Source: Actinomycetes bacterium (GTDB lineage Bacteria > Actinomycetota > Acidimicrobiia > Acidimicrobiales > SZUA-35). From it: 44,919 bases of DNA. The stretch lies in assembly GCA_024280015.1 (NCBI GenBank), contig JAJRQY010000036.1, positions 1 through 44,919 of the forward strand, read 5' to 3'. The notes under the pieces were generated by a model. The model searched no databases and was not told the origin of the DNA. It worked only from the letters and a program-made list of their open reading frames with translations. The position numbers and the translations under genes are program-made. Positions 4,207 to 39,066 of the stretch are shown piece after piece. Position 1 is the first letter of the stretch; the number at the start of each line of letters is the position of its first letter.

Positions 4207-5135
4207 TGGCTTGGTTGCTGTACCGCCGGCGCAACAATCAGTTGCTCAGGATTCCAAAAGCCGATGGACGGGTCAACATCAACATCGGGCATCACCGATA
4301 GAACGGCCGAGATTCGCTCACTAGCCAGTTGGCCTGGGTCAACAGGGTTGACAACAGACTCTTCGTATTCATCAATAACGATGAGGTGGAAGCCGAATTG
4401 AGTCTCGACAGGCCCAAGAATCTCGCCTTGTTCACCGGCCAAGATGGCATCCCGGAATGGTTCAACGAACCGGTCAGGGGCACTACAACCGAGCGATCCG
4501 CCCTGGGCGCCACTCCCCGGGTCCTGAGAGAATTCGGCTGCCAGATCACTAAAGTCAGCTCCTTGGGCGATCTGTCCAGCAAGGTCATCAGCCTCGTCCA
4601 AGGTTTCGACCAGGATATGGCGGGTACAAGGAATCAGAGCCGTTTCCGCCTCGGGCTGTTCGGCCGCAAGTGCATCTCCAAGCGCTCCCTGCTTGGCCCG
4701 AATCCGGCTCAGCGAGTCCAAATACGGGGCAAGTTCATCAACAATCTCACTGGTCAGGTCTGGATCATTGAACAGATTGTTGACTTCAAGAACGAACGCA
4801 TCGCTTGACTCAGTGAAAGCTGACTCAGGAACCGTGATCCCTTCATCAACCAAGACGCTGTCGATGACCTTCTCGATGATCAAGGTTGTCAGCAGCTGGG
4901 CTTGAAATCCATCGGGCATCTGACCAGAAAACGCAGCATCCAAGAAGCGCTGACTTGACTCGATGGAAGTAACAATGTCAGTCAGTTCGCTTGACGCAAT
5001 CTCGACCGAATCACCGTCGGGAATATGGACTGTTGCTGCTGGCCCCCCACGGGTTACGCCGCAAGCGGAAGCAACCAACATGAGCGCACCAACAACAGCG
5101 AGCAGGATTCGAGTATTCGTCGAGGAAGTCTTCAC
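4203..5135 (-). CDS. Parvulin-type peptidyl-prolyl isomerase lipoprotein (PrsA/SurA-like)
   Basis: A 310-residue exported protein. The N-terminus is a lipoprotein signal: basic start, hydrophobic ILLAVVGALMLV and lipobox ASAC at residues 22-25. Residues about 30-160 form a helical chaperone-like region. Residues 165-265 carry the PpiC/parvulin rotamase domain: CTRHILVETLDEAD, ADFSDLAAEFSQDPGSGAQGGSLG and ETQFGFHLI. By family it helps fold exported proteins at the outer face of the membrane. The GTG start has no Shine-Dalgarno but a TAGCCT box 7 bases upstream, so it may also be read from its own leaderless promoter, in addition to read-through from korAB 18 bases away. It overlaps mazG by 4 bases. 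The cysteines in the rotamase domain (IPCTRH, LGCSAP) could pair; that is inference. Confidence 0.88.
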   Translation of the reverse strand: MKTSSTNTRILLAVVGALMLVASACGVTRGGPAATVHIPDGDSVEIASSELTDIVTSIESSQRFLDAAFSGQMPDGFQAQLLTTLIIEKVIDSVLVDEGITVPESAFTESSDAFVLEVNNLFNDPDLTSEIVDELAPYLDSLSRIRAKQGALGDALAAEQPEAETALIPCTRHILVETLDEADDLAGQIAQGADFSDLAAEFSQDPGSGAQGGSLGCSAPDRFVEPFRDAILAGEQGEILGPVETQFGFHLIVIDEYEESVVNPVDPGQLASERISAVLSVMPDVDVDPSIGFWNPEQLIVAPAVQQPSQ

Positions 5136-5142
5136 AATGGAA

Positions 5143-5148
5143 AGGCTA
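5143..5148 (-). promoter_or_regulatory. -10-like box, near-leaderless start of the PPIase gene
   Basis: TAGCCT (TANNNT consensus) ends 7 bases before the GTG start at 5135, placing the transcript start within a base or so of the start codon. It lies in the 18-base gap after korB. Confidence 0.45.
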
Positions 5149-5153
5149 GAGGC

Positions 5154-6182
5154 CTACTCGACGTCCCAGGTGGCACCCGAGTGCAGAAGATCGTGAAGAT
5201 TTCCTTCGCCCTGGTTCTTCTTCGCCAACTTCAGCTGATTCTCAACCGCTTCGGAATACTCCTGTTGCTCAACAGCACGGAGCACACCGAACGGTGTCGG
5301 GGACTGACGATTGTCTGCCATTTGCCCAAGGGCGAAAGCGACCGAAGGATCAGGGTTCTTCTCGTCATGAATGGCAATGGCGTCCAATCCGACATCGGCG
5401 ACCTCGGCGATGGTTGCTCCGCCGCCGTGCATAACGATGCCGCGCTGCTTCTCTGCACCGAACAGGATCGGCTCGCCGTGGACCAGGTCAATCATCATCT
5501 CGTCGCGGTTGGCCCGCTTCACGATGGCATCAAAAGCGCCATCGTTGAACACATTGCAGTTCTGGTAGATCTCGACGAGGGCGGCACCCTTGTGCTCATG
5601 GGCACGCTTGAACGTTGCCATCATGTGCTTGCGGTCAAGGTCATGAGTTCGGGCAATGAAGCTGGCGCCGGCGCCGGCAGCGAGGCCGAGAGGCTTGAAA
5701 GGAGCGTCGATGGAGCCCATCGGAGTCGATTTTGTCACCTTGCCAACCTCACTGGTTGGGGAGAACTGGCCCTTGGTCAGTCCATAGATCTGGTTGTTGA
5801 ACAGCAAGATCTTGATATTGACATTGCGTCGCAAGGCGTGGATCAGGTGGTTGCCACCAATGGACAGCATGTCGCCGTCACCGCCAATAACCCAAACATC
5901 CAGGTCAGGCCGGGCCAACGCAAGTCCGGTAGCAATGGCTGGTGCACGACCATGAATGGTGTGCATGCCGTAGCTGTTCATGTAGTACGGGAACCGGGCG
6001 GCACAACCAATGCCGGAGATGAAGACGGAGTTCTCTCGCTTCACACCAAGCTCGGTGTGCAGGAACTGCATTGCAGCCAAGATGCCGTAGTCGCCACATC
6101 CGGGGCACCAGCGGACCTCCTGGCTCGACGTCCAATGGCCACGCTTGGTTGGGTCAGTCTGAATTTCTACCGTGCTGCTCAT
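5154..6182 (-). CDS. korB: 2-oxoacid:ferredoxin oxidoreductase, beta subunit (probably 2-oxoglutarate)
   Basis: The 342-residue thiamine-diphosphate-binding subunit. WCPGCGDYGIL (Cys26 and Cys29) matches the start of KorB-type beta chains, and residues 101-130 hold the TPP/Mg motif from GDGDM to the terminal NN. NQIYGLTKGQFSPTS further on is typical of the family. With KorA it oxidises a 2-oxoacid and CoA to acyl-CoA and CO2, reducing ferredoxin; in actinobacteria this enzyme commonly serves as 2-oxoglutarate:ferredoxin oxidoreductase in the TCA cycle. Substrate choice cannot be read from sequence alone. The start overlaps the korA stop by 4 bases (6179-6182), so the subunits are translationally coupled. 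Confidence 0.94.
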   Translation of the reverse strand: MSSTVEIQTDPTKRGHWTSSQEVRWCPGCGDYGILAAMQFLHTELGVKRENSVFISGIGCAARFPYYMNSYGMHTIHGRAPAIATGLALARPDLDVWVIGGDGDMLSIGGNHLIHALRRNVNIKILLFNNQIYGLTKGQFSPTSEVGKVTKSTPMGSIDAPFKPLGLAAGAGASFIARTHDLDRKHMMATFKRAHEHKGAALVEIYQNCNVFNDGAFDAIVKRANRDEMMIDLVHGEPILFGAEKQRGIVMHGGGATIAEVADVGLDAIAIHDEKNPDPSVAFALGQMADNRQSPTPFGVLRAVEQQEYSEAVENQLKLAKKNQGEGNLHDLLHSGATWDVE

Positions 6183-15594: not shown

Positions 15595-18500
15595 TCAATC
15601 AGGTTCTTCGGGCGGAGCAGGTTCAGACTCCCAGTCTGGCGGGCTCTGCCGGACTTTCGGCCTGCCCTCAACAACATGGATGTCGGGAGTGAAGTGGATG
15701 TCTGGCTGACTACTGAAGGCGTCGGCAACCGATTCGATGGCAGCAACCAGCCGGGTGGCTGGATCGCGATCATCACCACCGAGGCGTTGCTGTCGACGGA
15801 ACGTCTTCAGGATGTCACTCCAACGTTGCCGTTGCTCATCGGTCATGGAATCTCGAAGTTCAGCCAGACGAAGCAGATTCCACTCCGCCGCTCCGGTCAA
15901 GGCCTGAGACTCCGCCGCGTAGTGCTCATCAATCAAACGATCGACCTCATCAGCTGTCATGATCGGCAACAGCTTCGACGCCATCCGGGCCATATTCCGA
16001 TACGAGCCCTGCAATAAGAACGGCGGCTCGGTCCGGTACTGGTCATCGGTAGCGGCCGACGCGATGTATTGGCGGTTGACCGAGAGTACAACCTCTTGCA
16101 CCTGACGCAGGTGTCGCAGGGTTGCCACCATTTCGTTTACCTCGACCGAGGAGTAGGAACCATCGAGCATTGACTCTTCGATTGGTTCCGTTCCGGCGGC
16201 CCTGCCAGATGCTCGAAAGAACCGGTTGAGGTCTTCTGGACTACTGCCAGCCAGCGGTGCGAGTGCCGGATTCGAAGTCAGGGCGTTCTCCAGATAGCTC
16301 CGAGCAAAGACTTCTTCGTTGCCAGACAAGACATCACCAAGGTTATAGGTGTCGGCCCGATTGGCCAGCATGTCCGGGATTCGGAACCGCTCCCCTGACT
16401 CGGTGTAAGGGTTGCCAGCCATGACAACGGCGAAGCGTTTTCCTCGAAGGTCAAAGGAGCGAGCTGCCCCATCCCAAACCCCTTCAATTCGACGCTGGGC
16501 ATCACACAAGGAAATGAAGCGTTGGAGAAACTCAGGATTGGTGTGCTGGATGTCATCCAGGTACAAGATCACATTGCTGCCAACGGCAAAGGCCAAGTTG
16601 ATTCGTTCAATCTCTCGGGCTGCGGTTGCACTCGGAGCCTGAGCCGGATCAAGCGAGGTGACCTCGTGACCTAGGCCAGGGCCCGAGACCTTAACTAAGG
16701 CCATTCCCAAACGGTCGGCGATGTACTCAACCAGAGTCGTCTTGCCGTAGCCCGGAGGCGACAACAACATCAGCAGACCGGACCTGGCTCCAGCTCGATC
16801 ATCAGTAGTTCCGATCTGACGAGCGAGGTTGTCGCCAATGAGTGGCAGGTAGACCTGATCAATGAGCTGATTTCGTACAAACCCCTCCGGGACTTGAGGC
16901 TCCAAGTCATCAAGTCGCAGCGACTCACGCAAGCCAGATAGAGCGGCGTCACGGGCCCGGGTAAAGGCGCCATGGCGTGGCACCACTTCAGCATTGTGCT
17001 TGCGAACCTGCTGGATGACGTCATCAATTCGACCACTCAAGGTGCCAGCCTCAACCGTCGGGTGGCGACCGGTCAGCCCCTCAACCGAGTACGCAAGATC
17101 GATATCGACCATTCGTCGAGGGAGGTCGGGCAGGACCAACGAGACAACAACTTCTGCGGCCAAATAGCGGTTCTGTGCACCAATCTGGCGTTCGACATAG
17201 TCGTTGACCAGGACCATTGCCCCTTCGCGGTCATCGTCAAGACTCTGGACCAACGAAGAAACAACGTCATCCTTGGCCAACTTGTCCAGCCAGCCGACAA
17301 CGGCCCGAGATCGGGCGAAGGCGAACCCATCGGCTCGAAAGAGCTCACCAATCAGGTAGCGGGCAATCGGCCAAGTTGTGTCATCTGGTCTGTCTGGAGT
17401 GTCCGACCTGCCCAGACTGTCCGGCTCACTGGAGTCGCGGGGGTCATCATCGCCAGCAAGGTCCAGTTCTAGCTGATGAGCCAATTCATCCAAGGTCGAA
17501 AGCTCAACCCGTATTCCTGCGGCAGCGGCGCCACGCTCCACCCATCGATCGCGTTGCTCACTATCCAGCTGCTGAACCCAAGCAAGTTGGGCGGCGGCAC
17601 GAACCGAACTTGGCGTTAAGAGCGCCTCAGCACTCAGAGCCAGATGTCCGAGCTCACGAAGAATTCGTGTGGCGTCCAGATCATGAACACCACGGTCATA
17701 GCCTTCGGAAAGCCGCTGATCGACCTGATCTTGAACCAGTCGGAGCAGTCCATCAGACTCAGCAGCTGAGCCAGTATCGAAGACGGCTCCTGGCGTCTCG
17801 CCGGTCGCGTCCCGTCCCGCCAGCATGTCCAGAATCATGTCGACGGCCAGAAAAGTCGACCGGTACAGCTCGGAGGTTTCTGATACCAGCGGCCGTTCCC
17901 ACATGTCACGATCAGCCAGACCATCAGAGCTGGTAACTCCATGAGGGGAACCAGAACCAAGTGACATCCGCAGGTCGGTTCCGGTCAAGACCGCTTCCAG
18001 CTGGTCCTTACCGGGAACAATGGTTAGTTCACGGCGGCGATCATCAACGCTGAAGCGGTGCCGGCCAAGTTTGACGGCATCACCATCAAATAGATCTGCG
18101 CGGTCACGAAGGGCCCGAACGGCTCCATCACGAGCACTACCGATGCGAGCCTGCAACTCATCGGCTCGGACCGGTTCACCAAGCTCGCGAAGATCCTCCA
18201 ACAGCTTGCGGACACGGGCCACCATTGGATCAGCAGCAAAGAAGCCGTTGACGTCATCAGTTGATGGCAGATTGGCTGCTCGGTCCGACACCCGGTCCAG
18301 GGTGCGTTCGGCTGCTCCAACCAGTCTCTCAGCCCGCTGCTGGCGGTCATCCAGTAGCTGCTGGCGACGCGAAGACAGGGCTTCGGTTACCTGATCTCGG
18401 CGTTGCCCAAGTTCATCCAGCTGATCTTCTGTGCGGGGCCCAGCTGTCTCCAGTTGCTCCAATTGCAGCATGAGCCTCGCCAGGGCCTCATCACATGCCT

Positions 18501-20706
18501 CCGGGCTTGAGGCGCGGCCAACCGCAGTGGCAATGGATTGACCCAGCAAACCAAGTTCAGTAGCAAACGCTGCACCCGTCTCGGACTGGATCAGCAGATC
18601 GTTACGAGACTCGACAACGGCCCGAGCCCGATTGACCTCCGCCAGGACACCAGAGACTTGTGACAACACCGAGGTGCGAACTCGGGGATCATCGACGACC
18701 AGGTCGCCGACGGTGCTGGCCACCAGGTCCATTGAGTCAGACAGCTCATCGACCTCGACCAGAAGCTCCCCAGCTGCTACCGACGAATCGACGAGGGGTG
18801 CTTGTTCAGCGATTGCTGACAGGCGCTGGTGATAGCTGCTAAATGCTCCATCCGTTGACAGGTGCAGGGCCGCTTCTTGGGCCAATTCGTCGTGGGCGGC
18901 CTCGGCCTCACCGATGAGTTCGTCCACCCGCCCGACGTCGATCTCTCGCCGATCCTTGATGGTGTGGAGATGGCCGATCTCTCGCCGGACCACGGCCAGG
19001 CCACCGATGAAACCCTCGGTGTCTTTGGGTGGGGCAAGTCGAAACTCTTCTAAGGCTTTGGAAAGGGACGCCTCGGCTTCGGCCAGCGCTTCGGCCGCGC
19101 CAGCCTCGACCTCCTTCATCCGTTCAAACTCGTCAAGGACTTGCTCGGCTACCAGTCGAATGTCTCGGGCTGGACTGGCCAGATCACCGGATTCGGAATC
19201 ACCAGCCCAGTGATGGATGTCGACGAATCGTCCGGCGGAAGCTAGAAGATCTCCATAGACGGCGGCGCTCGCCTCTACTTCTTCAACCAGGCGGGCCAGA
19301 GCCAACGCATCAGCGATTCCACTGACCAACGAAGCGTTTCCGATTCGGTCAAACTCGGACTCTTGGCGTGGCTGCTTGGCGGCAAACTCATCGGAGAAGA
19401 ATGGAGTGATCCAGATCTGGATTGGATGAATTCTGGTTGGATTCGGTTCTTCACGAAACACCACCATGGTGCCGTCATCAAAGATGGTGTGGCCGTGGCA
19501 CCAGATTGGAGCAGAGACCTCTTGGCGAACCACGTTGTAGGTCAGCAGGATTGAGCGGCCACCGGCCTGCTCATAAAAGACGTACATAACATCTTCGCCG
19601 TTAGGAGAGCGAACGACCTCCAACAACTCCATGTCTGTGACGTCAAGATCGAAGGTTCGGACTTCACCAGTTTTGAGGTAGACCCCCTCGGGGAAAATCA
19701 AACCCTGGTCATCAGGCAACTGGCGAAAGGCATCGCCCAAGCTGTCCAAGCGCACCGCAGAATGAGCCAATCGGTTGACAACGTAATAGCGGTGATCGTT
19801 CTCGCCGTAAGGCAACAAATCAACCAGCACCAGATCACCAGCGATGGCCCAGCTGATCTCACAATCCTGCAACGACTGGTCAGCATGCTCCAGAGGATCC
19901 TCTATCAAGACACTCCCGGCCCCGCCATCATCAAGCAGGATCTGGAGAGAACCCCCAAGAGGATTGATCAGAACGCGCTCACCCAGCTGGATGAGTGAGC
20001 CATCCAGGTGATCGGCCCGCGTGCTTTTGATCCACTCGACGTCTTGGGAAGCAGGAAACGAATGGTCTCGCTCGCCCCGGGCATCAAGGTAGCGAAGCGC
20101 ATTGTCCGGTGAGATCTCCCAACGCAGAACCCGAATATCGCCCGCTCCCCCGCCCGTTCGAAAAACGGCGAGTAGGCGGTTTCCGGTTCGGTATAACTGT
20201 TGAAGCTTGGTCTGCTTGAAGTAGGTGTGAAGCTCTTCAAAGTCACGGCGGAACTGGTCATCATCCAGAACTGACCCCGTGAGCCCTTCCGGGTTCGGAC
20301 TGAAACTCACCTGAGCTGAGGTAGCTGCGGCTACGTCACCACCAAGTTCAAGATGATGGACCCCAAAAACGTCTTCAGGGCGGACACTGTCCGATACTCC
20401 GCTAACGGCGTTGTAGGCCAGGACCAGTTGCTCACCAATATTGGCGACATCACGAGGCACGGCATTGGACTCGGTCCGAACTCGTTCGGTACCAAGCAAG
20501 GCAAAGGGCGAGGAGCCGAACGCTTCGAGCCGCTTGGTGTTTAGTTCATTTGCTCGTGCGGTCAGCTCACTGGCTGCTGCTTCCAATCGACCCCGCAAAA
20601 GCGCGTAGGCACTCTGGGAAACACGGGATGAGTCATCGCCAGCCTCAGGCCCAGGACCAGAGGGCTCCTCATTGTCGTTGGTCTGGTCCTGTTGTTCGTC
20701 GCTCAC
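15595..20706 (-). CDS. Giant DUF3686 / AAA+ ATPase (annotated elsewhere as DNA repair ATPase)
   Basis: 1703 residues. The N-terminal half (about 60-450) is beta-rich and matches the DUF3686 style (DVFGVHHLELGGD; YRTGNRLLAVFRTG; VMYVFYEQAGGRSILLTYNVV). Residues 450-950 are charged and helical, probably coiled coil. The AAA+ module is at about 1290-1480: Walker A PPGYGKTTL near 1318, Walker B NVILYLDDIQ near 1382 and a sensor-1-like VVMAGNPYTESG near 1425. There is no signal peptide or membrane helix. It starts at a GTG overlapping the flotillin stop by 4 bases (GTGA), so they are translationally coupled. The family is usually called a DNA repair ATPase, but I know of no demonstrated repair activity; the neighbours suggest work at the membrane with the flotillin. 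Acidic, Gln/Asp-rich N-terminal and Pro-rich C-terminal tails are disordered. Confidence 0.88.
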   Translation of the reverse strand: MSDEQQDQTNDNEEPSGPGPEAGDDSSRVSQSAYALLRGRLEAAASELTARANELNTKRLEAFGSSPFALLGTERVRTESNAVPRDVANIGEQLVLAYNAVSGVSDSVRPEDVFGVHHLELGGDVAAATSAQVSFSPNPEGLTGSVLDDDQFRRDFEELHTYFKQTKLQQLYRTGNRLLAVFRTGGGAGDIRVLRWEISPDNALRYLDARGERDHSFPASQDVEWIKSTRADHLDGSLIQLGERVLINPLGGSLQILLDDGGAGSVLIEDPLEHADQSLQDCEISWAIAGDLVLVDLLPYGENDHRYYVVNRLAHSAVRLDSLGDAFRQLPDDQGLIFPEGVYLKTGEVRTFDLDVTDMELLEVVRSPNGEDVMYVFYEQAGGRSILLTYNVVRQEVSAPIWCHGHTIFDDGTMVVFREEPNPTRIHPIQIWITPFFSDEFAAKQPRQESEFDRIGNASLVSGIADALALARLVEEVEASAAVYGDLLASAGRFVDIHHWAGDSESGDLASPARDIRLVAEQVLDEFERMKEVEAGAAEALAEAEASLSKALEEFRLAPPKDTEGFIGGLAVVRREIGHLHTIKDRREIDVGRVDELIGEAEAAHDELAQEAALHLSTDGAFSSYHQRLSAIAEQAPLVDSSVAAGELLVEVDELSDSMDLVASTVGDLVVDDPRVRTSVLSQVSGVLAEVNRARAVVESRNDLLIQSETGAAFATELGLLGQSIATAVGRASSPEACDEALARLMLQLEQLETAGPRTEDQLDELGQRRDQVTEALSSRRQQLLDDRQQRAERLVGAAERTLDRVSDRAANLPSTDDVNGFFAADPMVARVRKLLEDLRELGEPVRADELQARIGSARDGAVRALRDRADLFDGDAVKLGRHRFSVDDRRRELTIVPGKDQLEAVLTGTDLRMSLGSGSPHGVTSSDGLADRDMWERPLVSETSELYRSTFLAVDMILDMLAGRDATGETPGAVFDTGSAAESDGLLRLVQDQVDQRLSEGYDRGVHDLDATRILRELGHLALSAEALLTPSSVRAAAQLAWVQQLDSEQRDRWVERGAAAAGIRVELSTLDELAHQLELDLAGDDDPRDSSEPDSLGRSDTPDRPDDTTWPIARYLIGELFRADGFAFARSRAVVGWLDKLAKDDVVSSLVQSLDDDREGAMVLVNDYVERQIGAQNRYLAAEVVVSLVLPDLPRRMVDIDLAYSVEGLTGRHPTVEAGTLSGRIDDVIQQVRKHNAEVVPRHGAFTRARDAALSGLRESLRLDDLEPQVPEGFVRNQLIDQVYLPLIGDNLARQIGTTDDRAGARSGLLMLLSPPGYGKTTLVEYIADRLGMALVKVSGPGLGHEVTSLDPAQAPSATAAREIERINLAFAVGSNVILYLDDIQHTNPEFLQRFISLCDAQRRIEGVWDGAARSFDLRGKRFAVVMAGNPYTESGERFRIPDMLANRADTYNLGDVLSGNEEVFARSYLENALTSNPALAPLAGSSPEDLNRFFRASGRAAGTEPIEESMLDGSYSSVEVNEMVATLRHLRQVQEVVLSVNRQYIASAATDDQYRTEPPFLLQGSYRNMARMASKLLPIMTADEVDRLIDEHYAAESQALTGAAEWNLLRLAELRDSMTDEQRQRWSDILKTFRRQQRLGGDDRDPATRLVAAIESVADAFSSQPDIHFTPDIHVVEGRPKVRQSPPDWESEPAPPEEPD

Positions 20707-22598
20707 TTGCCGATGCGACGTAGCAGATCAGCAACGGAAAGGTCTCGGAGTCCTTCCGGACCGAGCCCACCAATGGCTTCAGCTAGTTTGGCTACCAGGT
20801 CTTCATCACCAGTTAGATACGGATCTAGGGCTGTTTCGGCCACACCAGACTTCTCGACAAATGCATCCAGGGCCTTGCCCGAGCCAATGGCGCCGATTAC
20901 TCGATCGACGAAGATGTCTGAGCCGCCAACGATGTCGATATCGGCGCTTTCGAGCCCGGCCTTCATGGCATCGGCTTGAGCGGAAGCAATATCAACCTGG
21001 GCACCAACTGCGGCCAAACGAACCTTGGTGTCGGCTTCGAGCTCACGAACGAACTCTTCGTGCTCCTGACCGACGCCTTCCAGTTCACGCATTGCCGCGG
21101 CCTTCTCGGTCAGACCAGCGGCCTCACCCTTCAGTTTCGCCTCGGCGATTTCGGCTTCGGCCAGTCCAGCGACCCGCAACTTGTCGGCTTCAGCCTCACC
21201 AAGTTCGCGAACAACAACGGCCCGTGCCCGATCAACGCTGACAACAGCCAATCCGCTTGCCGCTTCTTCGGCCTTGATACCTTCAGCCAAGCGAATCTTG
21301 GCCTGAGCGCTCAACTCGGATGCTTCCATCTCGGCCTGAGCCAGCGTTATCTGGCGCTTAGCCTCATGCCCGGCGGCAGTCTCGGCTGCTTCTGCTTCCT
21401 TGATGTCTTTGACTAGGGCGCCCTGAGCCTCAGCTTCGGCGGCAATAACGACCGCATCACGCTCACGATTGGCCTGCTCAACAACCCGCAAGGTTGCGAT
21501 CTGCTCTTCTTGTTCGGCCACCGTCTTCTCGACTGCTACCCGGCCGCGCTTGATGTCGGCGATGACACTCATCTCTTCTTCCAGGGCTTTCTCCGCGGCC
21601 AAGGTCTCGACCTGGCGGCTCATGTTCTCCAGCTCAGCTGCCTTGCGAACACGCTCGGTCTCGACCCCAAGCACCCGCTCACGATTCTTGCCTGCAACTT
21701 CGATCTCGCGTTGCAGGTTCTCTTGCTCAATGCCGAGTTTCTGATCAACTTCGAGGGTTGCCATTTCGGCCCTCAGCCGCTCCTCGGCCTTCACCGTGTC
21801 AATGGTGGCCTGCTCGCGATGACGTACAGCCTGGATCTCACGGTGCTGACGAGCCTCGGCATCGGCTTGCTGGCGTTCAAGCTCCAATACCGCTTCACGA
21901 GTTTCCACGTTCTTGGCCGTGATCTGTTTGGCTTCGTTGTTGGCGATGTTGTTGGTGGCAACATGCTCGATGGCAGTCAGCTCGGTGATCTTGCGAATGC
22001 CCTGGGCATCGAGAATATTGTCGGTGTCCAGACTGGACAGGGGGGTCTGTTCCAAGTAGTCGATGGCAACGTCTTCCAATGAGTAACCGTTCAGATCGGT
22101 ACCGATTACCTCAATAATCCGATCACGGAAGGTGGCCCGCTCGGTGTAGAGCGAGACGAACTGCATCTGCTTGCCGACGGTCTTCAACGCCTCGGAGAAC
22201 TTGGCGGTAAACAGTTCCTCCAACGTCTCACGTTCTGAGGCTCGGTCACAGCCAATGGCCTGAGCCACCTTGATGACGTCTTCCTCGGCCTTGTTGACTC
22301 GGACAAAGAAGTTGACCTTGATATCGGCGCGAATGTTGTCCTCACAAATGAGTCCTTCCGTGCCGCGACGATCGATCTCGATGGTCTTGACGGAGATGTC
22401 CATCATCTCTGCCTTATGCAACACAGGGACCACAATCTGGCCGGTGAAGGTCACGATGACCTTCTTCATAGTGCTCACAACCAAGGCCTTACCTTGTGGC
22501 ACCTTTCGGTAGAGCCGCGAAAAGACCAGGCCGATGACGGCCGCCAACATCAAGAAGACGAAGACGACAACAAGAACAATTCCGATTGCTGTTGACAC
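20703..22598 (-). CDS. Flotillin-like SPFH/band-7 membrane scaffold protein (YqiK family)
   Basis: 631 residues. One membrane helix (residues 4-27) is followed by an SPFH domain (about 28-210: RKVPQGKALVVSTMKK; DISVKTIEIDRRGTEGLICEDNIRADIKVNFFVRV) and a very long Ala/Glu/Lys-rich coiled coil (about 215-520) with AEAEA-type heptads typical of flotillins. The C-terminal 100 residues (ADIDIVGGSDIFVDRVIGAIG) are the conserved flotillin tail. It should form large membrane-bound oligomers that organise a microdomain. GAGGGA lies 5 bases before the GTG start. It lies between a YqiJ-like protein and the AAA+ ATPase; yqiJ-yqiK is also a gene pair in E. coli. Confidence 0.92.
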   Translation of the reverse strand: MSTAIGIVLVVVFVFLMLAAVIGLVFSRLYRKVPQGKALVVSTMKKVIVTFTGQIVVPVLHKAEMMDISVKTIEIDRRGTEGLICEDNIRADIKVNFFVRVNKAEEDVIKVAQAIGCDRASERETLEELFTAKFSEALKTVGKQMQFVSLYTERATFRDRIIEVIGTDLNGYSLEDVAIDYLEQTPLSSLDTDNILDAQGIRKITELTAIEHVATNNIANNEAKQITAKNVETREAVLELERQQADAEARQHREIQAVRHREQATIDTVKAEERLRAEMATLEVDQKLGIEQENLQREIEVAGKNRERVLGVETERVRKAAELENMSRQVETLAAEKALEEEMSVIADIKRGRVAVEKTVAEQEEQIATLRVVEQANRERDAVVIAAEAEAQGALVKDIKEAEAAETAAGHEAKRQITLAQAEMEASELSAQAKIRLAEGIKAEEAASGLAVVSVDRARAVVVRELGEAEADKLRVAGLAEAEIAEAKLKGEAAGLTEKAAAMRELEGVGQEHEEFVRELEADTKVRLAAVGAQVDIASAQADAMKAGLESADIDIVGGSDIFVDRVIGAIGSGKALDAFVEKSGVAETALDPYLTGDEDLVAKLAEAIGGLGPEGLRDLSVADLLRRIGK

Positions 22599-22673
22599 TA
22601 TTTCCCTCTGTATCTCACTAGTAGGACCGGTTGGTATTGCATAACTGCTGGTATTGCGATTACTGGTTCATGA

Positions 22674-23360
22674 TCAGATCAGCCCATCGACGTCTGGTGA
22701 TACGAGGTAGTCGCCGTCCTCGTCCACCGAAACAATCAGAGCCCGAGATCCGGCACCAAGACGATTTGGGGTCTGGCACCTCACCTGGATGATGTGGCTG
22801 CCAGAAACGGAGTCAACCGCCTCGGCTTGCCCAAACTGCGTGCTGACGCTTCCGGTCCGGACGGTACAAAGGCGGCCAATAAGGTCGGCCCGACGGACGT
22901 GAGGCTCAGGCACGAAGACCGGAGCCAGCAAGATCGCCGTCTTACCGGCAATGAACATTCCCACGATCAGGCTGAGCAGGGTCAAGCCAACGCCGACCAG
23001 GGTCGCCGTGCTCCCCCCGGCTGAAGTGAAGAGCAGTGTGCCAAGGGCCGAGACCAAGAAACCAACGAGCGAGATGATGGTTAGCACGAGGGCCACCGGC
23101 ATCAGATGCAAGTCAAAGGCCTGCAAAATCCCAACAAGGAACCCGCTGGAACTCGCGGCGTCGCTGCCAGCATCACTACCCAAGTCTCCAGCGTCAGCTC
23201 CGACGTCGCCGGCAACATCACCACCCAGGTCAAGATCAAGATCGCCGCCGCCGCTTTCAAAGCCAAGCAACATCGACAAAATCCAGTAGCCAGCGGACAC
23301 CAGAAGGACCGTGGTGAAAATAGCTGTTGGATATCCGAATGCAATCTCTACAACCCGCAT
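22674..23360 (-). CDS. YqiJ-like membrane protein with C-terminal OB-fold (NfeD-like)
   Basis: About 228 residues from the ATG at 23360. A membrane helix (AIFTTVLLVSAGYWILSML) is followed by an unusual Asp/Gly/Ala-rich acidic segment (residues about 35-70), two more helices (about 80-110 and 115-145) and a C-terminal beta-rich domain (DLIGRLCTVRTGSVS ... GSRALIVSVDEDGDYLVSP) of the NfeD/OB type that partners flotillins. The 23360 start is chosen because GGGAGG lies upstream and the protein then opens with its first helix; a start at 23480 would add 40 unconserved residues and run over the divergent aldehyde dehydrogenase start. It is the first gene of the yqiJ-yqiK-ATPase unit, 75 bases ahead of the flotillin. 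Confidence 0.82.
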   Translation of the reverse strand: MRVVEIAFGYPTAIFTTVLLVSAGYWILSMLLGFESGGGDLDLDLGGDVAGDVGADAGDLGSDAGSDAASSSGFLVGILQAFDLHLMPVALVLTIISLVGFLVSALGTLLFTSAGGSTATLVGVGLTLLSLIVGMFIAGKTAILLAPVFVPEPHVRRADLIGRLCTVRTGSVSTQFGQAEAVDSVSGSHIIQVRCQTPNRLGAGSRALIVSVDEDGDYLVSPDVDGLI

Positions 23361-23462
23361 GCCGCTGCTCTGTCCTCCCTGGTTCGCATCATAGGTTCTC
23401 AGACCTAACGAGGGGGGCATCAGACAAGTTCCCAAAACTTCGGGCATTCGAACGACTGCCTC

Positions 23463-23468
23463 TAGCAT
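23463..23468 (+). promoter_or_regulatory. -10 box for leaderless aldehyde dehydrogenase mRNA
   Basis: TAGCAT ends 6 bases before the ATG at 23475, predicting +1 at the A of the start codon. No ribosome-binding site precedes the gene. Confidence 0.55.
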
Positions 23469-23474
23469 CGACGA

Positions 23475-24899
23475 ATGCATTACATCGATGGCTCATGGAT
23501 TGAATCCGCCAACACGTTCGAGGTCACCAACCCGGCAACCGGCGAGACGATCGGCCAGGTTGCTGACGGCGGTGCAGTCGAAGCAGCCCAGGCAGTGGCA
23601 GCCGCCAACAAGGCCTTTGCCTCCTTTGCCGCGCTCACTGCCTATGACCGAAGTGCCCTGCTGTACAAGGCGTGGACGCTCATGACCGAGCGGAGCGAAG
23701 ACCTTGCTCGCCTCATGACAGCCGAGCAAGGAAAGCCGCTCAAGGCCGCCCGCAACGAGGTCAAGTACGCCGCCGACTTCCTGCTCTGGTACGCCGAAGA
23801 GGCCAAACGGGTCTACGGCGAAACCATCCCATCGGCCCGAGCCAATCAACGTTTCATGGTCATGCGCCAGCCGGTCGGCGTCTGCGCCGCCATCACCCCT
23901 TGGAACTACCCGATCTCGATGATCACCCGCAAGATCGGCCCCGCCCTCGCCGCTGGCTGCACCATGGTGCTCAAGCCAGCAGAGCAGACGCCGCTATGCG
24001 CCATTGCCATGTTCAAGATCTTCGATGAAGTTGGAATCCCAGCCGGCGTTGTCAATATGGTCAACACCTCGTCGCCCGAAGAAGTCGGAAACGTCTGGTT
24101 GCAGGACAGTCGGGTTCGCAAGTTCACCTTTACCGGCTCAACCGAAGTTGGCAAACAGCTGGCAAGCCAAGCCGTGTCTAACGTCAAACGGGTCTCGATG
24201 GAACTTGGTGGCCATGCCCCATTCATCGTCTTTGACGATGCCGATCCTGTGCACGCGGCCAAGGGCCTTTCCCTGCTCAAGTTTCTCAACACCGGACAGG
24301 CCTGCATCTCACCCAATCGGATCTATGTGCAACGCACGATTGCCGAAGAGTTCTTGCAGACCCTGACTACCAGGGTGGCGGCCATGCAAGCAGGCGAAGG
24401 AACAACCGACGGTGTCACCATTGGGCCGTTGGTCGATACGGCCAGTGTCGACAAGGTGGAACGACAAGTGCAAGACGCCCTTGACAAGGGAGCCAAGCTG
24501 CTCACTGGTGGGCAGCGCCTGAACGAGGGCGGCCTGGACAAGGGGCACTTCTTTGCCCCGACCGTACTCAGCGACATCACGCCGGACATGCGAATCCACA
24601 ACGAAGAGACGTTCGGACCAGTGGCTCCGGTTATTGTCTTCGACGATGAGAGGGACATCTTGGACAAGGCCAATGACACGGCCTATGGACTGGCCGCCTA
24701 TCTCTATACCGACGACATTTCCCGGGCGTGGCGGATAGCCGAAGGCTTGCGTTTTGGCATCATTGGAATCAATGACATCAACCCGACTTCGGCCGCTGCA
24801 CCCTTTGGAGGAATGAACGAGTCAGGACTGGGCCGAGAGGGCGGTCACGTCGGCTTGGATGAATACTTGGACACCAAGCTGGTTGGCTGGACTGTCTGA
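23475..24899 (+). CDS. NAD(P)-dependent aldehyde dehydrogenase (succinate-semialdehyde dehydrogenase-like)
   Basis: 474 residues, full length for the family. The catalytic Cys277 lies in NTGQACISPNRIYVQ and the general base Glu243 in MELGGHAPFIVF; TPWNYPISMITRKIGPALAAGCTMVLKPAEQTP is the NAD-binding and oxyanion region and FTGSTEVGKQL the Rossmann motif. CISPNR and the overall pattern fit the succinate-semialdehyde dehydrogenase (GabD) branch, which makes succinate from succinate semialdehyde; aliphatic semialdehydes in general remain possible. It stands alone, divergent from yqiJ with 114 bases between the starts. It carries its own leaderless promoter and a hairpin after the stop. Confidence 0.92.
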   Translation: MHYIDGSWIESANTFEVTNPATGETIGQVADGGAVEAAQAVAAANKAFASFAALTAYDRSALLYKAWTLMTERSEDLARLMTAEQGKPLKAARNEVKYAADFLLWYAEEAKRVYGETIPSARANQRFMVMRQPVGVCAAITPWNYPISMITRKIGPALAAGCTMVLKPAEQTPLCAIAMFKIFDEVGIPAGVVNMVNTSSPEEVGNVWLQDSRVRKFTFTGSTEVGKQLASQAVSNVKRVSMELGGHAPFIVFDDADPVHAAKGLSLLKFLNTGQACISPNRIYVQRTIAEEFLQTLTTRVAAMQAGEGTTDGVTIGPLVDTASVDKVERQVQDALDKGAKLLTGGQRLNEGGLDKGHFFAPTVLSDITPDMRIHNEETFGPVAPVIVFDDERDILDKANDTAYGLAAYLYTDDISRAWRIAEGLRFGIIGINDINPTSAAAPFGGMNESGLGREGGHVGLDEYLDTKLVGWTV

Positions 24900-31111: not shown

Positions 31112-31744
31112 CTAGTCAGAATCTGGGCGACGATTCACCACGTTCATGGTGGCATCAAGACCTTGGGCCAACAAGAGTTCAACTGCGTCAGCGGCTTCCT
31201 CGATGGCGTGATCAAGAATCTGACGATCGGCTTTCGAGGGGCGCCGCAGCACCCAGTCTCGACCAGCCTGGGAAGCCGGTGGCTTGCCAACACCGATACG
31301 AAGACGGATGTAGTCAGTGGTACCCAGGTGCTGGGTGATTGATCGTAAGCCGTTGTGGCCGGCAAGCCCGCCGCCGCCCTTCATCTTCAGGCGCCCGGGT
31401 TCAAGATCTAGTTCGTCGTGGACGATGATCAGTTGCTCGCCGTCTTCAATTCCATAGCGGCGAGTGAGAATTCGGACGGATTCGCCCGAATTGTTCATGA
31501 AGGTCAGGGGGAAGGCAACAGCCAGACGTTTGCCGTCTACTCGCAGTTCAGCAGCCAGGGCGCGTTCCTTGCCCTTGCTGAGCTTTTATCCGTGGCGCTT
31601 GGCCAGGCAGGCAACGACGTCGGCACCAATATTGTGACGCGTATTTTCGAATTCAGGGCCGGGGTTTCCGAGGCCAACGAGAAGGAGATCGGCTGGAGTG
31701 CCGCGACGCTTTGGTTCACCCGGCGGGCGAGGCAACCGCGACAC
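31112..31744 (-). pseudogene. pth: Peptidyl-tRNA hydrolase gene interrupted by an in-frame TAA
   Basis: From the GTG at 31744 the frame encodes an 18-residue lead, then [19 protein letters not shown], with the catalytic His at codon 37, up to LAKRHG. Codon 53 (31586-31588) is TAA. The same frame then continues without a shift through KLSKGKERALAAEL, FPLTFMNNSGES, IIVHDELDLEPG and GGGGLAGHNGLRSI to a TAG at 31112, so the rest of Pth is complete (210 codons in all). One base change explains the lesion (for example CAA or AAA to TAA). Restarting at the internal ATG (31498) would lose the catalytic His. Pth rescues ribosomes by cleaving peptidyl-tRNA and is normally essential, so sequencing error, a second pth elsewhere, or read-through must be considered. 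It lies 9 bases after rplY. Confidence 0.85.
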
Positions 31745-33468: not shown

Positions 33469-33583
33469 ATGGTTCCCCTGAAGTGTGCACGAGTTCTCGC
33501 CGACTCTGTTCTGACGCCAACTCTACCGGGCGCCGCAAGCAGCATAGAGGGACCGGCTAGGGACGCCACTGAGGATTTATGAG

Positions 33584-33656
33584 CTCCCGGGGTTGGATTC
33601 GAACCAACGACGACCGGATTCAAAGTCCGGCGTTCTGCCAGCTGAACTACCCGGGA
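33584..33656 (-). tRNA. tRNA-Gln (anticodon TTG)
   Basis: 73 bases folding as a cloverleaf: acceptor TCCCGGG/CCCGGGA, D arm GTTCAGCTGGCAGAAC, anticodon stem CCGGA/TCCGG around CTTTGAA (anticodon TTG, reads CAA), and T arm GTTGG-TTCGAAT-CCAAC, with a G discriminator base. The CCA end is not encoded. A Gln tRNA near prs is also found in mycobacteria. Confidence 0.96.
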
Positions 33657-36605: not shown

Positions 36606-37445
36606 TCACAGTCCGTAAAGCTGTTGTCCGTTTGCCCAACTGGCAGCGGCCATCTCTGTTGCCACAATTTGTTGCAAATTTGCCACTTATTTTCCAACAA
36701 GGGACACCAGAGCCGGTCGATTGGGCTGACCGCGGTGGGGAACGGGGGTCAAGAAGGGTGAATCGGTCTCGATCAATGTGCGTTCGGTTGGGGTTAGTCG
36801 GGCTGCTTCTCTCAGCTCTTTTGCGCTGGGGAAGGTCACGATGCCACTAAAGGACAGAAATGCTCCACGCTCCAAACAAGCCTCAGCCTCTGCCGGTCCG
36901 CCAGTGAAACAGTGGAAAACCGTCCGCTCTGGCATGCCGACCTCGTCCAGGATCTCGAAGGTCTCGGGCCAAGCTTCACGGGTGTGAATAACCAGGGCCA
37001 TGTCCAGTCGCAGTGCCATGTCGATCTGGAGGCGAAAGACTTCGGCCTGCTCACGTCGGGGTGAGTTGTCATAGTGAAAATCGAGCCCACACTCGCCAAC
37101 AGCAACGACCTGCTCATCAGACAAGAGTTCTTCAAGACCAGCTACTCCGTCCTTGGCCTCGTGAGGATGTACACCAGCAGTGGCCCAAACATTGTCGAAG
37201 CCACCGGCGATTTCGATCGCCCGCTTGCTGTCAGCAACATCACAGCCGACCGTGAGCATCCTGCTCACTCCCCCAGCAACCGCCTCAGCGACTACCTCAA
37301 TGGGGTCACGCTTTACCGTGGTCAGGTGGCAGTGATTGTCGAACCAGCCGCCTATCTGGGAGTTCCCACCTACCTGGGAGTTCTCTGCCTCCTCTGGCGT
37401 CTGGCCAGCGGACTGCACAGTTTCAGACAGCACAGTCTCAGGCAT
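36606..37445 (-). pseudogene. tatD: TatD-family DNase gene with an in-frame TAA near the 3' end
   Basis: From the ATG at 37445 (8-base overlap with metG) the frame holds all TatD metal ligands: NHCHL (His38, His40), VGECGLDFHY, LVIHTREAW, VFHCFTGG and LIETDSPFL, then PVPHRGQPNRPALVSLVGK. Codon 253 (36687-36689) is TAA. The frame then continues for 26 codons (VANLQQIVATEM ... NGQQLYGL) to a TGA at 36606. That tail aligns without gaps to the family's usual ending (VAE-x-IA ... VA..T..NA..LFGL), the TAA replacing one residue. Stopping at the TAA removes the last helix, which packs on the barrel, while every catalytic residue remains. A single base change explains it. TatD enzymes are metal-dependent DNases or hydrolases and are usually not essential. 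Confidence 0.82.
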
Positions 37446-39066
37446 CGGCTTCCAGCTCAACCTTGGCGAAGAGTGGGGTCGGCTTAGCAATCGGGGTGCC
37501 GATGACCAGTGGTGCTCGATGCCAACCCTCAATTGGGCCGAGGATGTCGGAGATCTTGGCCGAGGTGAAGGGCAGGAACGGGTCGAACATCACTCGGACC
37601 CCGTTGATAGCGCTCAAGGCGACGTGAAGCATGGTTCGACCACGCTCCTGATCAACCTTGATCACCTTCCACGGTTCGGTGGCATTGAGGTAGGCATTTA
37701 CCGCCTGGGCGCTAGACATCGCACGGCGCAGAGCCGCCCGTAGTTCCACCGCACTGATTTGGGCTGCGGCGTCGACGATGGCCGCATCGACCAGATCAAG
37801 AAGGGCTTGGTCCTCATCGCTGTAGGGGCCAGGTTCGAGAATTTGTGCATCACAACTCTTGTTGGTCATGGACAGGACTCGGTTTACCAGGTTGCCCCAG
37901 GTTGCCACCAGCTCTTCGTTTACCCGGCGAGCAATCTCGGCCACGGAGATCTCGGTGTCAGACTGCTCCGGGAAGGCCGCAGCCAAGGCGTAGCGAATGG
38001 CGTCAGGCTCAAACTGATCCAACGCATCTTGGATGGTTAGCCCGATTCCACGGCTGGCTGAGGCCTTTCCGCCCTTAAAGGTGACGTACTGATTCGCGGG
38101 CACATTGGTCGGCAAGTTGAGGCCGCCGTAGGCCATCAATTGGGCAGGCCAGAAGATGGCATGGAACGGAATATTGTCCTTACCAACAAAGTAGTAGGAC
38201 TCGGCCTCGGGGTTCTCCCACCAGTGCTTCCAGCGGTCGGGGTCATCGGTCCCAGCCGCCCACTCCTTGGAGGCAGACAAGTAGCCGATTACCGCGTCGT
38301 ACCAGACATAAATCCGCTTGCCCTCGCCAAGGTCATCAACCGGCAGGTCAATACCCCATTCGATGTCCCGGGTGATGGCACGATCGTGCAGGCCCTCTTC
38401 GATCCAGCCAAGCGCGAAATTCAGGACATGGTTGCGCCAGCCTTTTCGAGACTTCAGCCACGTTTCCAACTCCGTTTGAAAATCGGACAGCTTGAAATAG
38501 AAATGCTCGGTCTCACGGGGTTCCGGAGTCGCACCCGAAAGCTTGGATCGAGGATTGATCAGGTCGATGGGATCCAGAGTGCGCCCACAATTGTCGCATT
38601 GATCACCTCGAGCGTCGGTGTAGCCACAGTTGGGACAGGTTCCTTCGACATAGCGATCGGGAAGGAACCGCTGGGCTTGCGGATCGTAGAACTGTTCGGA
38701 GATTCGCCGGTCGATGTGGCCATTCTCCAACTGCTTCATGAACATGTCTTGGGTGACGGCCGCGTGGTTGGCGGTGCCGGTGCTGGTGTAGAGATCCCAG
38801 GAGATACCTAGTTCCTCCCATTGGCGAACGAACTCGTTGTGGTAGCGATCGACAATGTCCTGGGGAGTCACCCCTTCTTCATCAGCCCGAACCGTAATTG
38901 GGGTACCGTGCACGTCGGAACCACTCACCATCAGCACCTCGTTGCCAATCCTTCGCTGAAAACGGGCAAAGACATCGGCAGGCAGGTAGGCGCCACCAAG
39001 ATGTCCAACATGGCGTGAGCCAGAGGCGTAGGGCCAAGCAACGGCTACCAGTATCGGTTTACTCAT
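37438..39066 (-). CDS. metG: Methionyl-tRNA synthetase
   Basis: 542 residues, a class I synthetase. The HIGH motif appears as HVGH (19-22) in YASGSRHVGHLGGAYLPADVF. The connective peptide holds a full zinc knuckle pair, CPNCGYTDARGDQCDNCG (about 142-160). The KMSKS loop reads KASASRG (about 330); mycobacterial MetRS has KFSTSRG as I recall, so loss of the usual lysine seems to be a feature of this branch. ATWGNLVNRVLSM opens the anticodon-binding helices. There is no C-terminal EMAP-like domain. TACGCT 8 bases upstream of the ATG suggests its own start just after the rmuC stop (15 bases away). It overlaps tatD by 8 bases. Confidence 0.95.
   Translation of the reverse strand: MSKPILVAVAWPYASGSRHVGHLGGAYLPADVFARFQRRIGNEVLMVSGSDVHGTPITVRADEEGVTPQDIVDRYHNEFVRQWEELGISWDLYTSTGTANHAAVTQDMFMKQLENGHIDRRISEQFYDPQAQRFLPDRYVEGTCPNCGYTDARGDQCDNCGRTLDPIDLINPRSKLSGATPEPRETEHFYFKLSDFQTELETWLKSRKGWRNHVLNFALGWIEEGLHDRAITRDIEWGIDLPVDDLGEGKRIYVWYDAVIGYLSASKEWAAGTDDPDRWKHWWENPEAESYYFVGKDNIPFHAIFWPAQLMAYGGLNLPTNVPANQYVTFKGGKASASRGIGLTIQDALDQFEPDAIRYALAAAFPEQSDTEISVAEIARRVNEELVATWGNLVNRVLSMTNKSCDAQILEPGPYSDEDQALLDLVDAAIVDAAAQISAVELRAALRRAMSSAQAVNAYLNATEPWKVIKVDQERGRTMLHVALSAINGVRVMFDPFLPFTSAKISDILGPIEGWHRAPLVIGTPIAKPTPLFAKVELEADA

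Follow-up and report, generated by a model that had tools for sequence, protein, structure and literature searches.

Peptidyl-tRNA hydrolase (Pth) is essential in Escherichia coli (PMC8012679). In-frame stop codons in conserved bacterial genes were described as widespread and short-lived by Belinky et al. 2021 (PMC7918605), who trace them to annotation artefacts, sequencing error, pseudogenes and stops in functional genes, and who retained only stops that were orthologous in at least two species, thereby removing sequencing errors. The pth gene considered here lies in a window of 44,919 nt (the whole stretch of DNA that was analysed), which is one contig of a 175-contig, 4.80 Mb draft genome with a completeness of 96.6%, from an uncultured actinobacterium of Acidimicrobiia type. 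It resembles the cases of Belinky et al. in that the stop is isolated and the frame is under purifying selection, but differs in that the stop is private and occurs in a draft metagenome-type genome. The closest named records by Pth are the metagenome genomes Dive96_bin3.128 (Actinomycetes bacterium, 90% identical) and SZUA-35 (Acidimicrobiia bacterium, 75% identical). Among the matches listed from the literature on pth loss, nonsense errors in metagenomes, rescue, read-through and the origin of the sister genome, we found no report of this interrupted pth.

The pth reading frame and possible backups

As the preliminary description had stated, the pth frame is intact on the minus strand except for a single TAA at codon 53, its sole internal stop (Table 1). 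The motifs GLGNPG and RHN precede the TAA, and FMNNSGES, HDELDLEPG and GHNGLRSI follow it in this order. Read through the TAA, the frame scored 208.4 bits against PF01195, covering positions 1-183 of 183 (cut-off 27), and 190.3 bits against TIGR00447 (cut-off 100). The Pth1 active-site motifs GLGNPG, RHN, HDELD and GHNG (with N10, H20 and D93 in E. coli numbering) are all present and were aligned to solved Pth chains. The gene thus shares full-length homology and motifs with the Pth1 family (TIGR00447/PF01195), but unlike a regular member it is not one uninterrupted ORF. The gene order prs-rplY-pth, followed by mfd, is common to this locus and the sister genome. Elsewhere in the window, positions 15595-24899 hold a 1703-aa ORF, a 631-aa ORF and two more ORFs without a counterpart in the colinear stretch of the sister, except for short sister matches to the first and third. 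We take the 631-aa product to be flotillin-like, the third to be NfeD-like and the fourth to be aldehyde-dehydrogenase-like.

A frameshift or deletion at the pth stop was rejected, as the frame is continuous and the identity with the sister runs across the stop; the lesion is a point nonsense, as had been proposed. It also holds that a restart at the internal Met would lack the catalytic His: the 128-aa ORF that starts at the first internal ATG has neither the His of RHN nor the Asn of GLGN and, judged from its sequence, would not be expected to be active, with the N-terminal motifs missing. No Shine-Dalgarno-like run was seen by eye in the bases adjoining this ATG upstream.

The interrupted gene is the only copy found. 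The suggested search for a second pth or a PTH2 was carried out, and neither was found in the 4.80 Mb at 96.6% completeness. The frames of RF1 and RF2 are both open, and both tmRNA and SmpB were found. An ArfB-type enzyme, also named as a possible rescuer, does exist: like ArfB (NF006718, PRK09256), one gene of the genome has the GGQ motif, but a one-base frameshift precedes its basic C-terminal tail. ArfB-like genes occurred in 32 of 39 family genomes (own included), and arfB was unshifted, in a single frame, in all 29 relatives fetched. Being frameshifted before the basic tail, the gene, otherwise the obvious backup hydrolase, cannot be counted as one in this assembly, and the rescue idea is weakened.

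Table 1. Features of the pth locus, the tatD locus and the arfB gene. Positions refer to the window unless a locus is named.
Feature	Position	Strand	Remarks
pth (peptidyl-tRNA hydrolase) frame	31112..31744	-	GTG start to TAG, one interruption
Ends of the pth frame	GTG at 31744; TAG at 31114-31112	-	
In-frame TAA, codon 53 of pth	31586..31588	-	Sister CAA (Gln), next relative GAA (Glu)
N-terminal pth piece, 52 codons	31589..31744	-	With GLGNPG and RHN motifs
128-aa ORF of pth	31112..31498	-	From first internal ATG (31498)
tRNA-Gln(TTG)	33583..33656	-	Anticodon stem of at least 5 pairs; directly upstream of prs-rplY-pth
TatD-family (TIGR00010) frame	36609..37532	-	Read through to ...LYGL end
In-frame TAA, codon 282 of TatD-family frame	36687..36689	-	Sister AAA (Lys)
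ArfB-like gene	L005 1393-1797 (contig C164); also L121 near 5117-5404		With GGQ motif

Codon 53 among relatives and selection on pth

pth was present, as a single copy each, in 37 of the 39 family genomes (own included) and was kept in all 20 family genomes with a completeness of 90% or more and a contamination of 5% or less. A stop inside the gene was confined to our genome, with none in the 36 family relatives that have pth. In a phylum sample pth was found in 382 of 396 genomes and, among the matches listed, again only our genome had a stop inside it. Codon 53 aligned to a sense codon in 78 of 80 pth loci from genome_contigs (two were uncovered) and in all 29 loci fetched from the family, the two sets overlapping. 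Two more stops flagged among the loci lie at the C-terminal end and upstream of the start, respectively. The alignment with the sister genome that the preliminary description had called for thus revealed no stop there. Besides the codons of the sister and the next relative (Table 1), other family members encode Ala, Thr, Glu, Ser, Val or other residues at this position, and the column is highly variable. Programmed or selected read-through would be marked by conservation of the same stop in related species, which the TAA at codon 53 does not have among the relatives examined.

The Pth proteins of our genome and the sister are 89.8% identical over 206 residues in an alignment that runs on across the stop, with pN at 0.080 and pS at 0.695. 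Downstream of the stop, 9.4% of the nonsynonymous and 73.2% of the synonymous sites differ. Judged by the outgroup, six amino-acid differences arose in our lineage and four in that of the sister, and ten could be placed in neither. At the pth columns invariant in all 29 relatives fetched no residue was unique to our genome, and the frame carries no further lesion besides the TAA. A long-standing pseudogene was rejected on these grounds (pN versus pS, no change at invariant columns): the relaxed selection or additional lesions expected of a pseudogene were not seen, although this would be equally true of a very young pseudogene. As the protein is conserved on both sides of the stop at near-saturated synonymous divergence, the lesion is either very young or not real.

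The invariant-column test covered six window genes (pth, rplY, prs, part of mfd, tatD and metG) with 22 to 29 relatives each; a seventh gene had no testable column. The six genes have 389 fully invariant columns. Our genome alone broke no column, the sister alone broke 3 and the other genomes, each alone, broke 110 in total, the close sister in the alignment depressing the counts of both our genome and itself.

A second TAA in tatD and the decoding of TAA

About 5 kb from the pth TAA, a TatD-family frame contains another in-frame TAA (Table 1), after which 26 residues can be aligned with relatives; the preliminary description of the pth stop leaves it unmentioned. All 29 loci fetched from relatives encode an amino acid at this position. 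TatD matches of four other relatives were flagged with one stop each; three of them (L303, L329 and L331) show no stop in the alignments, in which they start further downstream, and the fourth (G003) is outside the alignment set. Mapping of the sister orthologs on our genome (131 tested, 44,733 residues) yielded two internal stops judged genuine, those in pth and tatD, and the reverse mapping onto the sister (133 tested, 45,357 residues) likewise yielded two, both TAG and both on contig C46. Before curation, five orthologs in our genome and eight in the sister had a stop in the alignment; three and six, respectively, were discarded by eye as lying near the alignment end, upstream of the start or within a gap-ridden stretch. 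An uncurated scan for frame changes gave 2/133 for our genome and 2/135 for the sister. Both stops of our genome are TAA and fall within the window (Fisher 0.025, post hoc), and those of the sister are clustered on C46 (Fisher 0.0017, post hoc), where the two TAG (L262, positions 1190 and 5740), some 4.5 kb from each other, interrupt two conserved genes. A coding-potential scan for broken genes without homologs did not separate neighbouring from broken genes, and only its terminator counts were used.

Within their families, the columns of the pth and tatD TAAs both belong to the top 6% in variability; ranked among TAA-prone codons alone, they reach 0.10-0.17 (pth) and 0.17-0.24 (tatD), which is not significant. 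With nonsense changes making up 2.8% of substitutions and an assumed missense share of 72%, a uniform error load derived from two TAAs in 21 window orthologs (7,496 residues) amounts to about 3.2 errors per kb. At that load about 2.7 missense changes would be expected at the 389 invariant columns, where none was seen; the chance of zero is 0.07, or 0.72 if the load is set to its lower bound.

Of the 133 ORFs with a sister ortholog, seven run to the end of a stretch, and the 126 with a visible end terminate with TGA (58), TAG (49) or TAA (19). Long coding-like ORFs, sampled in the first 0.65 Mb (n = 316), end in TGA 141, TAG 130 and TAA 45 times, a count that may include antisense ORFs that are no genes. 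TAA therefore terminates genes here, and the loss of TAA as a terminator that marks a reassigned codon is not seen in this genome. Its 47 tRNA places correspond to 46 distinct tRNA sequences with 44 anticodons, one weak partial place not being called by ARAGORN. None of the anticodons TTA, CTA and TCA occurs among the 46 tRNAs read from the assembled sequence, to which unassembled tRNAs might add. A read-through tRNA type with a four-pair anticodon stem has been described (PMC13092985); the stems have at least five pairs in the seven types inspected (Gln TTG, Gln CTG, Lys TTT, Glu TTC, Tyr, Trp and Leu TAA), so this type was not seen among them. The tRNA-Gln(TTG), which has a match of 92.9% identity at the corresponding place in the sister, would be a plausible misreader of UAA. 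Basal UAA read-through is low. The preliminary description had further argued that TAA followed by A is a strong stop. The base at +4 is indeed A; however, the reported reduction of read-through concerns +4U (PMC5289835), and this argument is thus weaker than claimed.

Origin and meaning of the interrupted gene

We consider it probable that the pth TAA is a private point nonsense without programmed function, being either a consensus or minor-strain artefact or a very recent, unfixed allele. An error or a recent lesion had been the leading choices from the outset, and they remain so with a private stop in a pth that is otherwise without decay. In the case of an artefact, the TAA would stem from a sequencing or assembly error, or from an allele of a minor strain or of dead cells that entered the metagenome consensus; in the other case, it would be a nonsense allele that arose very recently. 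Either way, the variable codon 53 would be a sense codon in the functional cell population, and the lesion would not be fixed in living cells. Isolated lesions are background in both drafts, which supports this reading. Three observations count against it: our genome has no unique missense change at conserved columns of the six genes, which speaks mildly against a contig full of errors, both of its stops are TAA and lie in the window, which independent rare errors fit poorly, and both TAAs occupy highly variable columns, as tolerance by read-through predicts. The placement of the two TAAs and the lack of unique missense changes in the six genes, together with the conservation of pth on both sides of the stop and the read-through proposed for the widespread in-frame stops of Belinky et al. 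2021 (PMC7918605), would also fit a real nonsense allele that is tolerated, with misreading of UAA, for instance by tRNA-Gln UUG with insertion of the Gln of the sister, frequent enough to supply sufficient Pth. We regard such misreading as possible but unlikely, given that no suppressor anticodon occurs among the 46 tRNAs, that the seven inspected types have stems of at least five pairs, that RF1 and RF2 are open and TAA ends ordinary genes, and that the stop is absent from every relative examined. The earlier reluctance to invoke read-through was thus well placed. That the lineage in general tolerates real UAAs at permissive sites, with pth and tatD as natural leaky genes and peptidyl-tRNA recycling hanging on misreading while arfB is interrupted as well, seems to us very unlikely.

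A real loss of pth, offset by an unassembled second pth, by ArfB, by tmRNA or by a low rate of peptidyl-tRNA drop-off, is decidedly unlikely: a completeness of 96.6% leaves room for a missing gene, and tmRNA and SmpB are present, but the relatives are single-copy, neither a second Pth nor a PTH2 was found, the ArfB gene is frameshifted and pth shows no sign of relaxed selection. Reassignment or programming of UAA as a sense codon genome-wide might be suggested by the two TAAs that interrupt conserved frames within 5 kb of each other, and is already contradicted by the normal termination at TAA. Both release factors are present, no UAA-reading anticodon was found among the 46 tRNAs, just 2 of 131 orthologs are affected, and both sites are sense codons in the sister, so that we give this idea hardly any credence. 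The same improbability attaches to a split gene whose 52-residue and 128-residue pieces cooperate: both pieces are open and conserved, but neither product would contain codons 54-82, by eye no ribosome-binding-like run precedes the one internal ATG that lies ahead of the conserved part, and a stop inside pth is absent from the 36 relatives.

Our best estimate is that consensus damage or recent unfixed alleles explain both the private stop in a well-kept pth and the scattered lesions in the two drafts. Of the conserved genes tested in these drafts, about 1.5% carry an internal stop (2/131 and 2/133). If the pth stop is an artefact, an isolated stop in a single-copy essential gene of a draft genome is no ground for claiming recoding; if it is real, a bacterium whose sole pth is interrupted would offer a natural test of the minimal need for Pth and of the leakiness of UAA.
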